A stretch of DNA of 60,395 bases from an uncultured Alphaproteobacteria bacterium (GTDB lineage: Bacteria > Pseudomonadota > Alphaproteobacteria > Rickettsiales > CAIJLX01): positions 1 to 60,395 of the forward strand of contig CAIJLX010000081.1 in NCBI GenBank assembly GCA_903821695.1. The letters run 5' to 3'. Positions 39,525-48,902 of the stretch are shown here, piece by piece (the stretch's first letter is position 1; every line of letters starts with the position of its first letter). The notes under the pieces were generated by a model. The model worked only from the letters and a program-made list of their open reading frames with translations. It had not been told where the DNA came from and ran no database searches. Made by a program: the position numbers and the translations under genes.

Positions 39525-39553
39525 AAAAGGGCCACTTCGGTGGCCCTTTTTTT
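39525..39553. terminator. Intrinsic terminator between phasin and the convergent kinase gene
   Basis: An 11-base stem (AAAAGGGCCAC with GTGGCCCTTTT) closed by a TTCG tetraloop and followed by further T residues. It terminates the phasin mRNA; the matching A tract lets it also act on the minus-strand kinase, whose stop lies within its tail. Confidence 0.88.
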
Positions 39554-40901
39554 ATACCGGAATCTTAATCACCACTTTAAGTCCGCCAAGCTCGCTCTCT
39601 TCGAGCAGAATATCGCCGCCATGCCCTAGCACGATATCACGTGAGATGGTAAGCCCCAGCCCATTGCCACCGCTATCCAGATTGCGTCCAGGTGCTAAGC
39701 GTACAAACGGACGGAATACTTCCTCACGCTTTTCCAGCGGTATGCCAGGGCCGTCATCTTCGATAATCACCGTCGCGAAATTTGCTTGATAATTAGTAGT
39801 AATGCGGATGGTTTCCGCTTCACGGAGGGCATTATTCACCACATTGGTAAATGCACGCTTCAGAGAATTATAACGCAGGCTAATATAACCTTCGTTCTCA
39901 ATAATGAGCGAAATCTTCTTGCCGTGCAAATCATAGCCCTGCACCCATTTCTCGATCATCGCTGACCATTGCACGTTGATCGGCTTTTCGCTGCCCTCGC
40001 CTTTGGCAAACAGCAAATAGCTCTCCACCATTTTTTCCATTTCGGTAATATCGCCCTGCAGCCGTTCCAGCGCCTCAATCGGCATATCTTTTTTCTTGAG
40101 CAATTCGATCTGCAATTTCATCCGCGTGAGCGGCGTACGCAAATCATGCGAGATCCCAGCCAGCATCTCCGTACGCTGAGCAACCTGACGAGCAATCCGC
40201 TCCTTCATCTGAATGAGCGCTGTGCCTGCCCGCCGCACTTCGGTCGCGCCATGTGGGCGGAAGGTTTTTAAATCCTGACCTTTACCAAATTTATCGGCCG
40301 CAATAGCCAAGCGCTGAATCGCCCGGATTTGGTTTTTGAGGAATATAATCGCGACAGCCAGCAATATAATTGCGCTGCCAGCCATCCACAAAATAAAAAT
40401 ATACGTTGTCGGGTTTTCGAGGCGTTTGGAGACCACTAGAATCTCAATATTATTATCCGGCAGCCCTATCACCACCCGTACATCCGAAAACAGCCATTTG
40501 GTATAATGAATGGAAAACGGATAGAAAAAATGCCCTTTGAGAGTAGTGGCCAATTGCGCCAGAGCACCAGAAGCATACATCGTATTCATTTCAATCGGAG
40601 CCTTGGGCACCACATGCACATCCAGCCCCATATACCGATACGTCAGCGCAAATAACGGGCGAACCTGGTCAGGCGGCGTGGTTTCATAAATTTTGACGAT
40701 CGCGGCGATTTCGCCACCTAATGCGGCGGTCAAATTGCGGCTAACGCTCTCCCAATGGCGCGCATAAAACTGATAGGTAACTATGAGCTGTAGGAGTATA
40801 GTTGGGGCGATAATAATGGTCAAAAAACGACCGAATAACGATTTGGGCAAAAACCGCTTCTTGGCCGAAATAATGAGGGATTGAGCTTGATTGAGGCGCA
40901 T
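39552..40901 (-). CDS. EnvZ-like membrane sensor histidine kinase
   Basis: A 449-residue two-component kinase. Two transmembrane helices (about residues 22-45 and 170-190) enclose a periplasmic sensor of ~120 residues; a HAMP domain, the H-box SHDLRTPLTRMKLQIELL, the N-box NVVNNALREA, G1 DDGPGIP and G2 GGNGLGLTI follow. The layout matches EnvZ/OmpB-type kinases. No response regulator is beside it, so its partner is elsewhere. It is divergent from leuA, 23 bases away. Confidence 0.88.
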   Translation of the reverse strand: MRLNQAQSLIISAKKRFLPKSLFGRFLTIIIAPTILLQLIVTYQFYARHWESVSRNLTAALGGEIAAIVKIYETTPPDQVRPLFALTYRYMGLDVHVVPKAPIEMNTMYASGALAQLATTLKGHFFYPFSIHYTKWLFSDVRVVIGLPDNNIEILVVSKRLENPTTYIFILWMAGSAIILLAVAIIFLKNQIRAIQRLAIAADKFGKGQDLKTFRPHGATEVRRAGTALIQMKERIARQVAQRTEMLAGISHDLRTPLTRMKLQIELLKKKDMPIEALERLQGDITEMEKMVESYLLFAKGEGSEKPINVQWSAMIEKWVQGYDLHGKKISLIIENEGYISLRYNSLKRAFTNVVNNALREAETIRITTNYQANFATVIIEDDGPGIPLEKREEVFRPFVRLAPGRNLDSGGNGLGLTISRDIVLGHGGDILLEESELGGLKVVIKIPV

Positions 40902-42488: not shown

Positions 42489-43031
42489 CTATTTAATCAC
42501 TTCCTGCATCAGCTCTAACACCGTCGCGCTGACCATGACATTCGTTTTGCGAATATTCTTAAGGTTCGCTTCCATTTTCACACGGCTATCGCCATCCAAC
42601 ACAAAGCCGAGCATGCCTTCTTTATAAATAAACCGCCGCGCATCGCTCATGGTTAATATATCGTGGTCTGAAACTTTGGTGAGAATGTTTGGAAGCGAAC
42701 TCTCTTCCGTATCCGAGATAAACAACATGTTACAATTGCGCATCTCGTCAATATTGCGTAGTTCCCTGACGCTCCATTCTGCCCCTGCATTTTTTGCATG
42801 CACCAAACGGGCCAAACTTCGGCCAACACTCGCATCCTCTTCCTGGCTGGAAGATTCAATATAACAAAAATTAATATGGTTTAGATGCTGCCCGCTCCAG
42901 GTGACGAACTTGGCCAATTTCATAATATAAGCTGCCTTAATTTCGACATCGCTAAAATTCTGCGCACGCGCGGGACTTGTCACCACCGCCAGGCACATTA
43001 AGGTCAGCAATGTAAAAATGTGCTTTTTCAA
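42489..43031 (-). CDS. YfiR/DUF4154-family periplasmic protein
   Basis: An exported protein of about 180 residues. The signal peptide (KKHIFTLLTLMCLAVVTSPA) is followed by VEIKAAYIMKLAKFVTW, the hallmark of the YfiR family, and by RNCNMLFIS, NILTKVSDHDILTMSDARRF and MEANLKNIRKTNVMVSATVL. In Pseudomonas YfiR inhibits the membrane diguanylate cyclase YfiN. I place the start at TTG 43031 with GGAA upstream, because the ATG at 43130 would overlap the preceding gene by 53 bases and add a non-signal N-terminus. It ends the operon after a TonB receptor and an acyltransferase; no diguanylate cyclase is nearby. Confidence 0.78.
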   Translation of the reverse strand: MKKHIFTLLTLMCLAVVTSPARAQNFSDVEIKAAYIMKLAKFVTWSGQHLNHINFCYIESSSQEEDASVGRSLARLVHAKNAGAEWSVRELRNIDEMRNCNMLFISDTEESSLPNILTKVSDHDILTMSDARRFIYKEGMLGFVLDGDSRVKMEANLKNIRKTNVMVSATVLELMQEVIK

Positions 43032-43077
43032 AGTGATTCCAAAATTGTGATAAATTGCAACAGAAACATTTGTTTTT

Positions 43078-43806
43078 TCAATCCAAAGCTGTGTTTTTTT
43101 CGGTCGTTTTTTTCGTGAGAGCGGCCACATGTGTATTTTGTATGTCCCACACCATAATCTGCATTTTTACTCCTTCAAAATCAGGGCGTTCCGGTAACAC
43201 AATATGATCCAGTATAGTTGCAAGAGTGCCTGTATATAAAGAGGCGATTTTACGATACATTCGACAACGCAATTTATCTGTCATGGCGAAGAAATATTGT
43301 GCCTGCATGTCACGTGCATGGTGATAAAAATTAGCAAACATTCGGCCGATATATTCACTGTCATTTCGATAATCAGGATGAACAAGCATGCGGCTTGCTT
43401 CTACATAACCAATATCCTGCAATGCAAGCTCGGGAAGCAGTGTTTTAAGCCTGTAGGCCGGGTTATCCAGATCCAACTCTAAAGGCAATAATCGCGTTTC
43501 GCCTTTTGCACAGAATGTCAACATGCCACCGCCGATGCAACGTTCGCCATCTAATAATACCTGGGTGACATTATGATCGCCCCAATAATCCCTCACATCA
43601 TTCTGTTGAAAATCTCTAAACCCTATAAATTTTGGATCCTTATCGTAAAGCTCGGTCCGCAGATCAATAAATTTTTGGATTAGCTTCGGATTATGCGTGT
43701 ATATGAAGGAAGCGTTTTTATACGCGCTAATGAACTGTGAGCCTGGATATTTCCGCAAGGCCGAGGCAGAAGGATGGCTATCTGGCAACTCAAGGTTGAA
43801 TTTCAT
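43078..43806 (-). CDS. GNAT-superfamily acyltransferase, FeeM/N-acyl amino acid synthase-like
   Basis: A 242-residue protein with GNAT features: the core strand pattern CIGGGMLTFC, then GYVEASRMLVHPDYRNDSEY and a C-terminal region with FFAMTDKLRCRMYRKIA. This resembles long-chain N-acyl amino acid synthases and exosortase-associated acyltransferases, which use acyl-ACP to acylate an amino acid or similar amine. The substrate cannot be read. It lies 42 bases after the TonB receptor gene and before the YfiR-family gene on the same strand. Confidence 0.65.
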   Translation of the reverse strand: MKFNLELPDSHPSASALRKYPGSQFISAYKNASFIYTHNPKLIQKFIDLRTELYDKDPKFIGFRDFQQNDVRDYWGDHNVTQVLLDGERCIGGGMLTFCAKGETRLLPLELDLDNPAYRLKTLLPELALQDIGYVEASRMLVHPDYRNDSEYIGRMFANFYHHARDMQAQYFFAMTDKLRCRMYRKIASLYTGTLATILDHIVLPERPDFEGVKMQIMVWDIQNTHVAALTKKTTEKNTALD

Positions 43807-43848
43807 GTTGCGATTTTAGCATAAAATTAAAAAGGAGTAAAAAGCTTA

Positions 43849-45825
43849 TTAATATTTAAATGTCACTTTTGCGTAGAATTCCCTGCCAATTTTATTCGCA
43901 ACACCTTGTAATGGTGCACCAAATTCCTGGTGTGAGTTTTCCAGTAGGTTTTGCCCAACCAGCGCCAAATCGATGCCATTATCGATTTTCCAGCCCAAAC
44001 GCGTATCTAAGCGCACATAATCATTCACATTATAGAGCGGCAATTTATCAACATAATAGACTGTATTGGTCCACTCAATATTATCTGTCAGCTGCATATT
44101 GGAGCGAATATTGAATTGGTTTTTCGGAATTTTTCCTTCTTCCTGTGCAAGGACTATATCCGTACTGCCTGGCTTGTTCTTCAGATCCAGCTCCGTGTAG
44201 GTATAGGCTCCTTTTAAGCTCCAACGGCTAGTAACATCCCATGTGGTTGCAAGCTCGAACCCCTGCGTATTGCCTTTGCCTAAGTTTTTAACTTCTGCGG
44301 GCAAAACGACACCACCTGAAGTGACTTCGGGGGCACCGAATTCGAAAGTGCGGAGGTTATTATAATCGTTATAGAAAACCGAAGCATCTGTTATCAGTTT
44401 TGGTGTAATCCGCCAACGATAGCCAAGTTCATATGCTATTAACTCTTCTGATTTCATAGCATCAATGCCGCGTTGCTGAACCATAACTGCATTGGTCGGA
44501 TCATAGGCGATATTGAGCCTGATATCTTCTTCTGCGCGGCTAGGTGTACGAACCGATCGCGAAACGGAAGTCCACACTGTCTGATTGTTGGTTGGATACC
44601 ATGCCAACTTTGCACTTGGCTGTACTTCAAAGCCGCTATAATCATTATGCTCGAATTTAGAACCCAAGGTTAAATCAAGCGCTTTTGGCACAAGCGTGAT
44701 GGTGTCTTGCAAGAATGCACTATAAAGCGACGTATCACGGCTAGTCGGATTAAGCGTAAGGGTCGGTGTACCTCTAAAATCATCCGAAACTAGGCGATAC
44801 CCAGCACCCCATACAAATTGGTTGCGGTCATTATAGGCCCAGGAAGTTTGATAATCGAAATCGATCGTATTAATGTCTTGGTGCAACACTCCATAGCTTG
44901 GGCTTTGGTAATCGTAATAGGCTTGGAATGTAGACTCCATGCCATCACCGTGTTTTTGTGTAAGCCTTGCTAAGACGTTGGCACCCCGAGAATTGATTTT
45001 ATCTGGCTCAACAGTAGTAAAGGGAGCAGTTGAAGTTGGGATGTAATTGTTTAAATGGATACCCGCGTCATAAAAATCACCTTGCACCGTTAATTTGCGA
45101 CCCGGCGATGCATCAATATCTGCACGGAAGCCTGCTTTACCTGAATCCCAATGGTTATTACCATTTTGGTGATCTAGCGTTTCTGTTGCCATTCGATCAG
45201 CAAATTTGCCGTAAACACGATACGCTGTATTGCCTGCTGTGCCGCCATAACGGGCTTCGGTAATGCTTCTATCTTGTGTACCTACCAGCTGGCTCACATA
45301 AACACCCTGTGTTTGTTCGGCCTTCTTAGTGATGATGTTAATCATGCCATTTACCGCATTTGCGCCCCAGAGAGCAGCACCAGGCCCACGAATCACTTCA
45401 ATGCGATCAATATCTTCTAAAACAACATCCTGAATGTCCCAATAGACCCCGGAAAAAAGAGGCGTGTAAACAGTCCGGCCATCAACCATCACTAATAGCT
45501 TATTGGCGAATACATCATTAAACCCACGTGAAGTGATCGCCCAATTGCTGGAATCAACGCGCGCCACTTCAAGCCCTGGCACTCCGCGTAAGACTTCCGC
45601 AATATGAGTGGCACCGGAAAGCCTTATGTCTTCTTGGGTAATAACGGTAATAGCGGCAGCGGATTTAAATGAATCTTCTGGGCGCTTTGAAACGGAAGTA
45701 ATAATGTTTCCAAGGTTTTCGAAGGAGAGATTATCTAACATTTCGAGGTTTGTATTTGCTGCAAAACCAGTGCCACTTGCAGCCAATATTGCCGTTGAAA
45801 TTACTGCCTTATACCAAAAACGCAT
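43849..45825 (-). CDS. TonB-dependent outer-membrane receptor
   Basis: A 658-residue receptor. A signal peptide (cleavage after GFAAN region, residue ~22) precedes the plug domain with ITVITQEDIRLSGATHIAEV, RGFNDVFANKLLVMVDGRTV and VIRGPGAALWGANAVNGMINII, then a 22-strand beta barrel ending in the C-terminal aromatic FYAKVTFKY. The N-terminus NLSFENLGNIITSVSKRPED resembles the TonB box region of receptors paired with YfiR proteins. A good GGAGG site precedes ATG. The ligand is unknown; neither siderophore genes nor an ExbB/D set adjoin it. Confidence 0.87.
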   Translation of the reverse strand: MRFWYKAVISTAILAASGTGFAANTNLEMLDNLSFENLGNIITSVSKRPEDSFKSAAAITVITQEDIRLSGATHIAEVLRGVPGLEVARVDSSNWAITSRGFNDVFANKLLVMVDGRTVYTPLFSGVYWDIQDVVLEDIDRIEVIRGPGAALWGANAVNGMINIITKKAEQTQGVYVSQLVGTQDRSITEARYGGTAGNTAYRVYGKFADRMATETLDHQNGNNHWDSGKAGFRADIDASPGRKLTVQGDFYDAGIHLNNYIPTSTAPFTTVEPDKINSRGANVLARLTQKHGDGMESTFQAYYDYQSPSYGVLHQDINTIDFDYQTSWAYNDRNQFVWGAGYRLVSDDFRGTPTLTLNPTSRDTSLYSAFLQDTITLVPKALDLTLGSKFEHNDYSGFEVQPSAKLAWYPTNNQTVWTSVSRSVRTPSRAEEDIRLNIAYDPTNAVMVQQRGIDAMKSEELIAYELGYRWRITPKLITDASVFYNDYNNLRTFEFGAPEVTSGGVVLPAEVKNLGKGNTQGFELATTWDVTSRWSLKGAYTYTELDLKNKPGSTDIVLAQEEGKIPKNQFNIRSNMQLTDNIEWTNTVYYVDKLPLYNVNDYVRLDTRLGWKIDNGIDLALVGQNLLENSHQEFGAPLQGVANKIGREFYAKVTFKY

Positions 45826-45920
45826 TACACCTCCGCTAATGAATTACTAACGAAGGATAACGCAAAATTAAAAGATATTCCAGAAAAACAATAGGTTGTG
45901 CTTTTTTCGCTTTTCTATTC

Positions 45921-46754
45921 TTAGGTTTCTATTGCCACCAGGAAGTAATTTTCATCTTCTTCAGGAGTCTTTGGATCGGTGCTTTTTTGTAGCGCTTTAT
46001 ATTTCCATTGCTCACGTAATACCAATCCCGATTTGGCAAGGAATTCTGGCATTTGCGCACTCGGACATACCCAATAAATCACTTCACCGACTGTATTCAC
46101 CAACCACGGAAGCACACGCTGCAAAAAACTGCACTCACTATCATGCTGAGCCATCGCACCAAACAACACCAATGTATCTTTATGCAACGTCGCTATCTGC
46201 CTAAATGTTTCTGCAACAGCTGCTTCTGGCACATACATGAGCACGCCCTCAAAAATGAATAAGACGGGCTGTTGGTTGGAAAGACTAGGAATCTTTTTGA
46301 GTTCTTCGAGAAAATTGCTGCGGCTTAAATCGCAGGGGTGAAATATCACGTTTTTTTGCTGCGTTATTCCAGCTAGCTGTAATGCTTTTTGTTTTTGCTG
46401 CTGGGTGCTTGGTAAATCCATTTCGATAAATCGGCAGTCGGGATAATACGCAGAGAGCGTCAGCGCTAATGTATCAAACCCAGCGCCAACAACGACCACT
46501 TGCTCTATTCCGCCAGCAATTGCTTTCTCTGCTTGTTCTCGAACTAATTTTTTGCGGGCGACGAAATGAGCAGACATGCCGGGCACGAAAAACATCGCCA
46601 TTATTTTTAGCTGCCAGGAGGCGGGCAACCAACGGATGATTTTTTTGCCAATATTATCGGCACCAAAGCGGGCGAATGCGTTAAGATAGGGCGAAGTTTC
46701 GCCCTGGTTCTGCAGTGTAATAACAATGTTATAGGCAGTTAAACTGGCTGTCAT
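45921..46754 (-). CDS. Class I SAM-dependent methyltransferase, PPM/leucine carboxyl methyltransferase family
   Basis: A 277-residue protein of the Ppm1/Tcmp-type methyltransferase family, members of which O-methylate carboxyl or hydroxyl groups in secondary metabolism. The SAM-binding stretch is VVVVGAGFDTLALTLSAYYP followed by FIEMDLPSTQQQKQ; later motifs are IFHPCDLS, LFIFEGVLMYVPE and an N-terminal membrane-proximal helix. It is the first gene of a minus-strand group with the TonB receptor, 95 bases downstream. Its substrate is not evident; it may act on the product of the acyltransferase. Confidence 0.75.
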   Translation of the reverse strand: MTASLTAYNIVITLQNQGETSPYLNAFARFGADNIGKKIIRWLPASWQLKIMAMFFVPGMSAHFVARKKLVREQAEKAIAGGIEQVVVVGAGFDTLALTLSAYYPDCRFIEMDLPSTQQQKQKALQLAGITQQKNVIFHPCDLSRSNFLEELKKIPSLSNQQPVLFIFEGVLMYVPEAAVAETFRQIATLHKDTLVLFGAMAQHDSECSFLQRVLPWLVNTVGEVIYWVCPSAQMPEFLAKSGLVLREQWKYKALQKSTDPKTPEEDENYFLVAIET

Positions 46755-46801: not shown

Positions 46802-47206
46802 CTAAATATGCTTTGGTGAAACAACCTGTCCGCCCATTAAATTGGAGAGGGGTTGGGCGATGGGTTCGAAGGTCATGATGACCATGAAATCTTTGTGCCA
46901 GGTTTTGCGGATGTGAGAGAGGTTGGGCTGTAAAGGTTGGCTGAAGGCATCCCATGCAGCAGAAAGTGGCGGCTCACCTTTTTTGGTGTTGGGGTTAAAT
47001 AAAATAGCATAGCGCAACCGCGACCCGTCGACTTCGTTCATCTGAACTAAAAAATCTTCGACCAATTCGGCAGGAACGGGCATTTTCTGGCCTTTAGGAT
47101 TGGGGATGATTTCCGTCACGTAAAAAGGCATCAAATTCGGATCCTCAGGCATGGTATATTGCTGTTCGTGGACTAAAAATCTGGGCGTGGATGAAATATC
47201 GAGCAT
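46802..47206 (-). CDS. Hypothetical protein beside the orphan terminase
   Basis: A 134-residue soluble protein that I do not recognise. It has no signal peptide or membrane segment and reads as a compact domain (VTEIIPNPKGQKMPVPAELV, LRYAILFNPNTKKGEPPL). It follows the terminase large subunit gene on the same strand after about 50 bases and precedes the methyltransferase gene, 47 bases on. The frame is open from ATG 47206 but no strong ribosome site is seen. It may be part of the phage-derived island, which is inference. Confidence 0.6.
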   Translation of the reverse strand: MLDISSTPRFLVHEQQYTMPEDPNLMPFYVTEIIPNPKGQKMPVPAELVEDFLVQMNEVDGSRLRYAILFNPNTKKGEPPLSAAWDAFSQPLQPNLSHIRKTWHKDFMVIMTFEPIAQPLSNLMGGQVVSPKHI

Positions 47207-47257
47207 GTCTTATTATCCAACAAATAGATTAAGGAACCATTAAGAATAGAGAATATC

Positions 47258-48661
47258 TCATAATACCCTGATTTTCCAGCCATTTTCCTGCATTTCGCGC
47301 ATCTGTATCCAATTGAGAAATTGGGTGGTGGCATCGACGATATCGTCATGTGGCATTTCGGGAAAACCCAGCCATTCGCGCTCAACCTCCGCCAACCACA
47401 AAGCGCCTTGCAACAACTGCACTTTCCCCGCCTCGAACAACCCCAATACGCGCAACAAACGTTGGAGTTTATCCCCCTTGGGCTGAATGGCAATAATGGG
47501 TAAATGCGTGCTGCTTTTGAGCTCTTGGATCAGCGATTGGCCGCTGGCTTTATCCTCAATCAAAATCACTTCCGGTTGGTATTTCTCGGCGGCCGTGATG
47601 ATTGCTTTTTTGAGCGTAGGATATTCCATCGCCGCATGTACCATATCTTCCAGCACATAATGCTCCTTCGTAATCCGCCAGGTTTGGCCCACGGAAAGAT
47701 CATGCTGCGCCCCCGCCTTCAACGCCGTATCCCAACTTTGCACACGGACGCCCTCTTGTGGTAAAGCAGTATAATGCAGCCATTCCGGATGAATAATGCG
47801 GCCCTCCGCTAGTGCTGGCTGCTGTTGATATTGCGCCGCGAATTGATGGCTGCCGATATCACGCTTCAGTCTATCAAACGCCTCCGCCGAATCCCGCTTC
47901 GGATTCAACAATTCACCACACGTACGTACGTACATAAAATTACCGAAATGATAGGTGCGTGGCGTTGTTTCAATCGCCGGGATCACCAAATGTTCCCAAC
48001 CCTCTCCCGCCCTCAGTTTACTGGTTAAATCTTCCGCATGTAGGCGCTGCATCACCACGACATAACAGCCTTTTTTCAAATCATCTTGCCGTGTCATAAA
48101 CGTATTCTGAAACCAATCCACCGCGCGTTTACGATAGGCGGCACTGCCCACCTGAATCGCGTTATGCGGATCATCGACAATCATGAATTCTCCGCCCTCG
48201 CCGGTGAGCGTGCCGCCAACGGATGTCGCCATTCGGAAACCGCGTTTATTCGTCATGAATTTTGCTTTTTGGTTTTGGTCTTTCGCGAGCTTCATCTCTG
48301 GAAACAAATCGCGATACCAATTGGATTGCACCAACGCCCGCGCATCGATCGAATGTTTCAAACTAATCGCGCTACTATAACTCGCCGCAATAATTTGCCG
48401 CGAGGGTTGATGGCCCAATAACCACGCCGGCCACGCTACACTCACCGCATGGCTTTTCATATAACGTGGCGGCATATTGATGATAAGGCGCGAAAGTTCA
48501 CCCCTAGCACAGGCATTCAAATATTCCGCCATCAGGCCGAGATGCCAATTAGGAATCAATTGCGCGTTGGGGTGGGTGATTTCGACGCTGCGGCCGATGA
48601 AACTGGCTAAATCTTGCCTATAAAGAGCTTGGTATAATTCCGGCGTTTCGCTGTTGGACAT
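47258..48661 (-). CDS. Phage-type terminase large subunit
   Basis: A 467-residue packaging motor-nuclease of the Terminase_6 type. The N-terminal ATPase has LIINMPPRYMKSHAVS (a Walker A variant) and FMIVDDPHNA (Walker B); the C-terminal nuclease domain retains SWDTALKAGAQHDLS, ILIEDKASGQSLIQEL and MPHDDIVDATTQF with its acidic metal ligands. All key residues appear intact. No portal, capsid or tail genes lie near, so this is an orphan copy, either prophage or gene-transfer-agent debris or a domesticated motor. It overlaps the small upstream gene by 44 bases. Confidence 0.85.
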   Translation of the reverse strand: MSNSETPELYQALYRQDLASFIGRSVEITHPNAQLIPNWHLGLMAEYLNACARGELSRLIINMPPRYMKSHAVSVAWPAWLLGHQPSRQIIAASYSSAISLKHSIDARALVQSNWYRDLFPEMKLAKDQNQKAKFMTNKRGFRMATSVGGTLTGEGGEFMIVDDPHNAIQVGSAAYRKRAVDWFQNTFMTRQDDLKKGCYVVVMQRLHAEDLTSKLRAGEGWEHLVIPAIETTPRTYHFGNFMYVRTCGELLNPKRDSAEAFDRLKRDIGSHQFAAQYQQQPALAEGRIIHPEWLHYTALPQEGVRVQSWDTALKAGAQHDLSVGQTWRITKEHYVLEDMVHAAMEYPTLKKAIITAAEKYQPEVILIEDKASGQSLIQELKSSTHLPIIAIQPKGDKLQRLLRVLGLFEAGKVQLLQGALWLAEVEREWLGFPEMPHDDIVDATTQFLNWIQMREMQENGWKIRVL

Positions 48662-48902
48662 AAAGTTCGAGCAATGCCTTATCGGTTGGTGTGGGGGTGA
48701 AGTTTTTAGCCTCGGCAGGGGTGATCTTCGCCATTTCCTCCGCCGCTTTCATGAGCAGAACGATCATTTCCTTCTGCTCTTTTGGGCTAAGCGATGCTTC
48801 CTCGGCCAACGCCCGTAAAGCCGATTCCATCACCCTTTCCATCGCCGCCCGAATTTTAGTAGCTGTTTTATCGGGCTTTTTGTTTTTGGGCTGGCGGGGC
48901 AT
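48618..48902 (-). CDS. Small helical protein, possible terminase small subunit
   Basis: A 94-residue basic, helix-rich protein (MPRQPKNKKPDKTATKIRAA, then AMERVMESALRALAEEASLS and KEQKEMIVLLMKAAEEMAKI). Position directly before a terminase large subunit, with a 44-base overlap, and its size suggest a small-subunit (DNA-recognition) role, but no helix-turn-helix is obvious. This is inferred from context. Confidence 0.55.
   Translation of the reverse strand: MPRQPKNKKPDKTATKIRAAMERVMESALRALAEEASLSPKEQKEMIVLLMKAAEEMAKITPAEAKNFTPTPTDKALLELYVQQRNAGIIPSSL

Follow-up and report, generated by a model that had tools for sequence, protein, structure and literature searches.

In the genome of a member of the Rickettsiales, we describe a group of four genes that places a candidate N-acyl synthase beside an outer-membrane receptor set. 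We are almost certain that these genes, which encode a methyltransferase, a TonB receptor, a GNAT acyltransferase, and a YfiR protein, form a real module and not a chance grouping. By analogy with known systems, they could well constitute a full system that both makes and senses a small molecule carrying a fatty acyl group, a reading that we hold with slightly less than even confidence.

Four genes on one strand of a Rickettsiales contig

The window (the whole 60,395-nucleotide stretch of DNA analyzed here) carries the following open reading frames, all on the minus strand and listed in reading order.

45921..46754, minus strand: LCM-family (leucine carboxyl methyltransferase-like) SAM-dependent O-methyltransferase (MTase), 277 aa; identified from PF04072, TIGR00027, and predicted fold
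43849..45825, minus strand: TonB-dependent outer-membrane receptor, TOL_0244 family, 658 aa; identified from NF053590, with Plug and barrel domains
43078..43806, minus strand: GNAT acyltransferase, FeeM/LuxI-like, candidate N-acyl amino acid synthase, 242 aa; identified from fold and from relatives' PF21926 matches
42489..43031, minus strand: YfiR-like periplasmic protein (DUF4154) with signal peptide; identified from PF13689; TTG start preferred

The one-strand group of methyltransferase, TonB receptor, FeeM-like acyltransferase, and YfiR protein claimed in an initial annotation of this DNA was found at these coordinates. The YfiR open reading frame as called runs from 43130 to 42489, and its 5' end overlaps the GNAT gene. 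We prefer the TTG at 43031 as the start because it yields a clean signal peptide (MKKHIFTLLTLMCLAVVTSPARAQ, read by eye) and no GNAT overlap, leaving a gap of 46 nt; the other two gaps measure 95 nt (MTase to receptor) and 42 nt (receptor to GNAT). A terminator scan found no terminator-like site in any of the three gaps, so a single transcript through the four genes is plausible. Across the locus region, matches in the promoter and terminator scans were at chance level; one of the promoter-like matches, of the extended -10 type, lies at 43813 to 43841, just ahead of the GNAT start. Just upstream of the methyltransferase gene and on the same strand, positions 46802 to 48902 hold a lone phage-type terminase large subunit gene (Terminase_6C, 47258 to 48661) and two small open reading frames; the terminase could be a remnant of a gene transfer agent or of a prophage.

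The window genome (G000; 2.1 Mb, rated 100% complete) belongs to the Rickettsiales, where it forms a family of its own within our sample. ExbD, which TonB receptors need for energy, is present in four copies. The assignment to the order rests on UBA6187, a relative from the same order (G047). The study "The evolutionary origin of host association in the Rickettsiales" (PMC9352585) places UBA6187 in the Athabascaceae and describes this family and the Mitibacteraceae as probably free-living, biofilm-capable bacteria.

Linkage of acyltransferase, receptor, and YfiR genes across the order

We surveyed 217 Rickettsiales genomes, scoring the receptor as present where the TOL_0244 profile matched at E <= 1e-60. 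By this threshold 58 genomes carry the receptor, and 51 match the GNAT profile. Both were found in 45 genomes, the GNAT only in 6, the receptor only in 13, and neither in 153 (Fisher test, 4e-28, uncorrected for phylogeny). A receptor lies within 3.2 kb of the GNAT in 37 of 52 GNAT loci, where chance, given genome size and the number of receptor copies, would yield ~0.3; YfiR is also present in 30 of these linked loci. GNAT loci were retrieved from 15 families, and every one of these families has at least one linked locus. Because several loci end at contig edges, these linkage counts are lower bounds. Common one-strand runs are GNAT-TonB-YfiR-HK, TonB-GNAT-YfiR, and MTase-TonB-GNAT-YfiR, some with overlapping genes, and the last order is common to the window and G020.

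Co-occurrence of the neighbors in relatives had been named as the test that could refute the initial annotation, and the annotation withstood it: GNAT, TOL_0244-type receptor, and YfiR occur together through 15 families. Its statement that the receptor-YfiR pair encloses the acyltransferase describes the window layout but not the usual one, in which the GNAT is the outermost gene (GNAT-TonB-YfiR-kinase); enclosure is one of several layouts. The probability that the genes are chance neighbors is negligible, since order-wide synteny and co-occurrence rule this out.

Outside the Rickettsiales, the same receptor is widespread, mostly with YfiR and a kinase, and none of 28 receptor loci elsewhere in the phylum had the GNAT. 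Because the set occurs without the GNAT in other orders, we conclude that the GNAT is an addition to it in the Rickettsiales. The attached GNAT thus distinguishes the module from the TOL_0243/TOL_0244 YfiR-TonB sets, which it otherwise resembles in having a receptor that passes the TOL_0244 cutoff and a set that includes YfiR and a kinase.

The receptor tree joins the window receptor at 100% support to those of G020, G036, and G483, all GNAT linked, whereas a second receptor of the window genome (contig C28) falls in a clade of six GNAT-free receptors. In the GNAT tree, the window sequence groups with G047, G020, G069, G483, and a Methylococcales metagenome-assembled genome (98%). The Methylococcales contig carries its window-clade GNAT (L081, 7983 to 8618) with no receptor nearby and may reflect either horizontal transfer or a binning error. 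Distances in the GNAT and receptor trees correlate with a Mantel r of 0.59 (best of 2000 permutations, 0.28; uncorrected for species history). Two GNATs are present in G483, one of its own family's type and one of the window type beside a window-type receptor; because the other GNAT is of the family's own type, this genome apparently acquired its window-type GNAT and receptor together. A small multidrug resistance (SMR) pump adjoins the set in both G483 and G020. Partners can also be swapped at times, since in G036 the receptor is of the window type but its GNAT is not.

The acyltransferase is nearest FeeM in predicted fold

The window GNAT reached none of the curated profile cutoffs. Against the FeeM profile (PF21926) it scored 13.1 bits (E, 0.084), below the curated cutoff of 27, and its identity to FeeM is ~10%. 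Among 22 GNAT relatives, 14 match PF21926 with E values no higher than 0.1 (the lowest being 1.7e-10), and 13 match the PEP-CTERM/exosortase-associated acyltransferase model TIGR03694 (exosort_acyl). The predicted structure had been suggested for comparison with FeeM, and in an AlphaFold2 model of the GNAT (pLDDT 83.9) the best structural match, first of 999, was indeed FeeM 2g0b (Z 17.2, rmsd 2.9, 175 residues). The next structure scored Z 15.7, a margin of 1.5 Z, and LasI scored Z 14.5; the top Foldseek matches were BjaI and FeeM. We call the GNAT FeeM-like because of the relatives' PF21926 matches and the predicted fold, and these are the features that it shares with FeeM and other long-chain N-acyl amino acid synthases. 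We consider it probable that the enzyme is an N-acyl synthase, joining a fatty acid to an amino acid.

The GNAT also resembles the AHL synthases of the LuxI type. BjaI, LasI, and MesI are among its top fold matches, and most relatives carry a LuxI-like R, D, GGxR, ExxR pattern (R, 40/46; D, 42/46; GGxR, 36/47; E, 45/48; R, 33/48) of the kind that we take to be conserved in LuxI (R24/E43/D45/D48/R68/E97/R100-type positions). This pattern is incomplete in the window GNAT, which retains R50, E136, and R139 but has M95 in place of the Arg of GGxR and G76 in place of the conserved Asp. Because these two residues are conserved in most relatives, the window enzyme may differ in substrate or have changed activity. 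Unlike in LuxI-type systems, no LuxR regulator was recognized among the labeled GNAT neighbors, and sensing would take place at the outer membrane. Since it fails both the FeeM cutoff and the full LuxI residue pattern, the window GNAT is filed as a member of neither family.

Nor does the window GNAT share the genomic context of FeeM, being linked to a receptor set and not to a fee cluster or an exosortase. Exosortase is present in 4 of 26 GNAT genomes but absent from the window genome, and a PEP-CTERM link was ruled out on this ground. Families f23, f20, and f5 include nine loci (L034, L035, L038, L039, L043, L111, L123, L125, and L126) with a glmS-like gene no more than 0.5 kb from the GNAT, which is apparently an old chromosomal site. 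An amino-sugar-specific GNAT, considered in light of this neighbor, was set aside, as glmS is not close to the window locus and the fold points to FeeM.

The fold also bears on whether the enzyme is a conventional GNAT that acylates protein, with part of the sensor set as its target. Many protein acetylases have a GNAT fold, but FeeM ranks first by the 1.5-Z margin, the relatives match the FeeM and exosort_acyl models, and YfiR and the receptor lie outside the cytoplasm; such a role is therefore highly improbable.

Locus variants and alternative roles

The GNAT lies apart from the receptor in about one-third of loci, mostly in family f23. In one f23 locus (L034), LPG_synthase_TM and glycosyltransferase genes follow the GNAT downstream, which suggests lipid work; three further f23 loci have genes alike in length, and one GNAT is weakly similar to OlsB (0.0077). 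These observations would suit a membrane aminolipid pathway, in which the GNAT makes a lyso-aminolipid (compare OlsB and ornithine lipids), the receptor set regulates envelope state, and their linkage reflects co-regulation. However, the f23 loci concerned are ones in which the receptor is not adjacent, no recurring O-acyltransferase partner was seen, and the methyltransferase does not fit, making this pathway quite unlikely.

In other loci, further enzymes are encoded between the GNAT and the receptor: a heme-oxygenase-like iron enzyme (PF14518) in three f29 loci (L051, L122, and L129) and a P450, FAD-binding oxidoreductase, or ThiF protein in some others. Because the intervening enzymes differ, they may carry out lineage-specific tailoring of the product. 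EamA and SMR transporters are encoded in the loci of three relatives and are candidate exporters. Transporters adjoining some loci are also in keeping with cargo processing, in which the receptor would import a foreign amine (a siderophore or the signal of others) that the GNAT and MTase would then modify in the cell by acylation and methylation, so that it is trapped, inactivated, or used. Import of cargo is the usual role of TonB receptors, and GNATs and methyltransferases are common detoxifying enzymes. We nevertheless regard this scheme as very unlikely: the GNAT fold is nearest a synthase that uses long acyl chains, and the scheme requires passage of the cargo through the inner membrane, for which no recurring importer was seen.

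A rare methyltransferase adjoins the module

The methyltransferase passed the cutoffs of both PF04072 (LCM; E, 2.7e-29; 102.8 bits; cutoff, 22.3) and TIGR00027 (94.7 bits; cutoff, 93.55). Its model (pLDDT 82.3) is nearest ML2640, PPM1, LCMT1, and TYW4 (Z 20 to 23 over almost the whole length), after which scores drop to Z 17. PPM1/LCMT1 and TYW4 methylate amino-acid-type carboxylates. By natural extension from LCMT1 and TYW4, the target of the window enzyme would be the carboxylate of an N-acyl amino acid.

The family is rare, occurring in 12 of the 217 genomes of the order. An LCM gene is present in 10 GNAT genomes, and 8 of these 10 fit the module linkage: the gene adjoins the GNAT in 7 (G000, G006, G020, G042, G047, G084, and G475) and the receptor in G510, where the GNAT is on a different contig. 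This distribution, rare in the order yet mostly beside the GNAT or receptor, supports the inclusion of the upstream methyltransferase in the module by the initial annotation. The predicted product, an N-acyl amino acid methyl ester, resembles the N-acyl alanine methyl esters (NAMEs) of Roseovarius, which likewise come from an alphaproteobacterial host; the synthase genes for NAMEs are unknown (PMC11580390).

Receptor, YfiR, and a CHASE8 kinase

The receptor passed the equivalog cutoff of NF053590, the TOL_0244 family (655.6 bits; cutoff, 645). The YfiR protein passed PF13689 (YfiR/HmsC; 1.7e-27; 96.7 bits; cutoff, 24.9), has a signal peptide, and matches solved YfiR structures at 4.7e-4; it is below the equivalog cutoff of NF053591, the TOL_0243 YfiR (69.2 bits; cutoff, 125). 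TOL_0244 of Thalassolituus oleivorans shows sevenfold induction on n-C28, and its similarity to OmpS, an alkane sensor of Alcanivorax dieselolei, is 40.3% (PMC6304351). Because the receptor family handles long alkyl chains, an N-acyl ligand would fit a TOL_0244-type receptor.

The alkane link is accounted for equally well by the main rival explanation, surfactant production with lipid uptake. Here the GNAT, with the MTase or oxidases, would make an N-acyl amino acid biosurfactant, and the receptor-YfiR-kinase set would sense and import a hydrophobic nutrient and not the acyl amino acid. Both TOL_0244 and OmpS are tied to growth on alkanes (PMC6304351), PMC4897644 deals with biosurfactants and N-acyl amino acid synthases of metagenomic origin, and some loci contain the heme-oxygenase-like, P450, and FAD oxidizing enzymes described above. 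We still consider this explanation unlikely. Carboxyl methylation would weaken a surfactant, no recurring alkane or lipid catabolic genes were found among the scanned locus neighbors, and the receptor set occurs without the GNAT elsewhere.

A histidine kinase often adjoins the set as well, and in a domain scan of neighbors such kinases carried CHASE8, the sensor domain of YfiN, which is under YfiR control in YfiBNR. The module thus shares YfiR and a CHASE8 sensor domain with YfiBNR of Pseudomonas and E. coli but has a TonB receptor for YfiB and a histidine kinase for the diguanylate cyclase YfiN. The initial annotation had noted that TonB-YfiR pairs usually come with a diguanylate cyclase or kinase; a kinase does belong to the set here and is just unlinked in the window genome. 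Contig C20 of this genome (L056, G000:C20, 8793 to 11360) encodes a CHASE8 kinase and a response regulator with receiver and RsbW-like ATPase domains. Since this pair is most similar to those of G009 and G474, which adjoin GNAT-TonB-YfiR, we infer that it serves the window module from a distance. An EnvZ-like kinase in the window (39552 to 40901) was rejected as the partner, being without CHASE8 and beyond leuA; the C20 kinase fits better. The window genome also has a second set, without a GNAT (L053, G000:C28, 3412 to 7711), in which YfiR and a TOL_0244-like receptor are accompanied by a hybrid kinase that has CHASE8 and a receiver.

Several further features of the kinase loci were observed. 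The RsbW-like ATPase end of the C20 regulator hints at a partner-switching output, and a serine recombinase gene and other mobile-looking genes follow the C20 pair. In family f14 (L113, L115, L127, L132, L134, and L135), a divergent kinase of 865 to 970 aa adjoins the GNAT; the one scanned, in L113, is of the hybrid type and gave no match to CHASE8, and a small Hpt protein follows YfiR there. L115 has a tandem pair of receptor-YfiR pairs.

A possible acyl-signaling pathway

FeeM transfers a long acyl chain onto an amino acid. By analogy, the GNAT would use acyl-ACP or acyl-CoA as the donor of a long acyl chain, with an amino acid or a comparable amine as the acceptor. In the lineages that have the methyltransferase, including that of the window, the LCM-type enzyme would then methylate the free carboxylate to give an N-acyl amino acid methyl ester. 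The product would diffuse out of the cell or be carried out by small drug/metabolite exporters, for example of the SMR and EamA kinds, and would be bound at the outer membrane by the TOL_0244-type receptor. The state of the receptor would pass to periplasmic YfiR and from there, as in YfiBNR, to the CHASE8 sensor domain of the histidine kinase.

We tentatively propose that this pathway represents an undescribed class of cell-cell signaling in free-living Rickettsiales, in which the N-acyl amino acid of a FeeM-like enzyme (a methyl ester in some lineages) would be perceived by a TonB receptor, outside the cytoplasm, and relayed via YfiR to a CHASE8 histidine kinase; we regard this as possible, if somewhat doubtful. 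The open-access literature on YfiR with TonB and kinase, on DUF4154 with TonB receptors, and on Rickettsiales with AHL synthase described no such system, in agreement with the initial annotation, which knew of none with this combination. If the proposal is true, the Rickettsiales, known for their obligate intracellular parasites, would include free-living lineages with an acyl-signal system of their own, in which perception at the outer membrane replaces LuxR. The YfiR-TonB-kinase sets, so far mainly database families, would likewise gain a candidate class of ligand.
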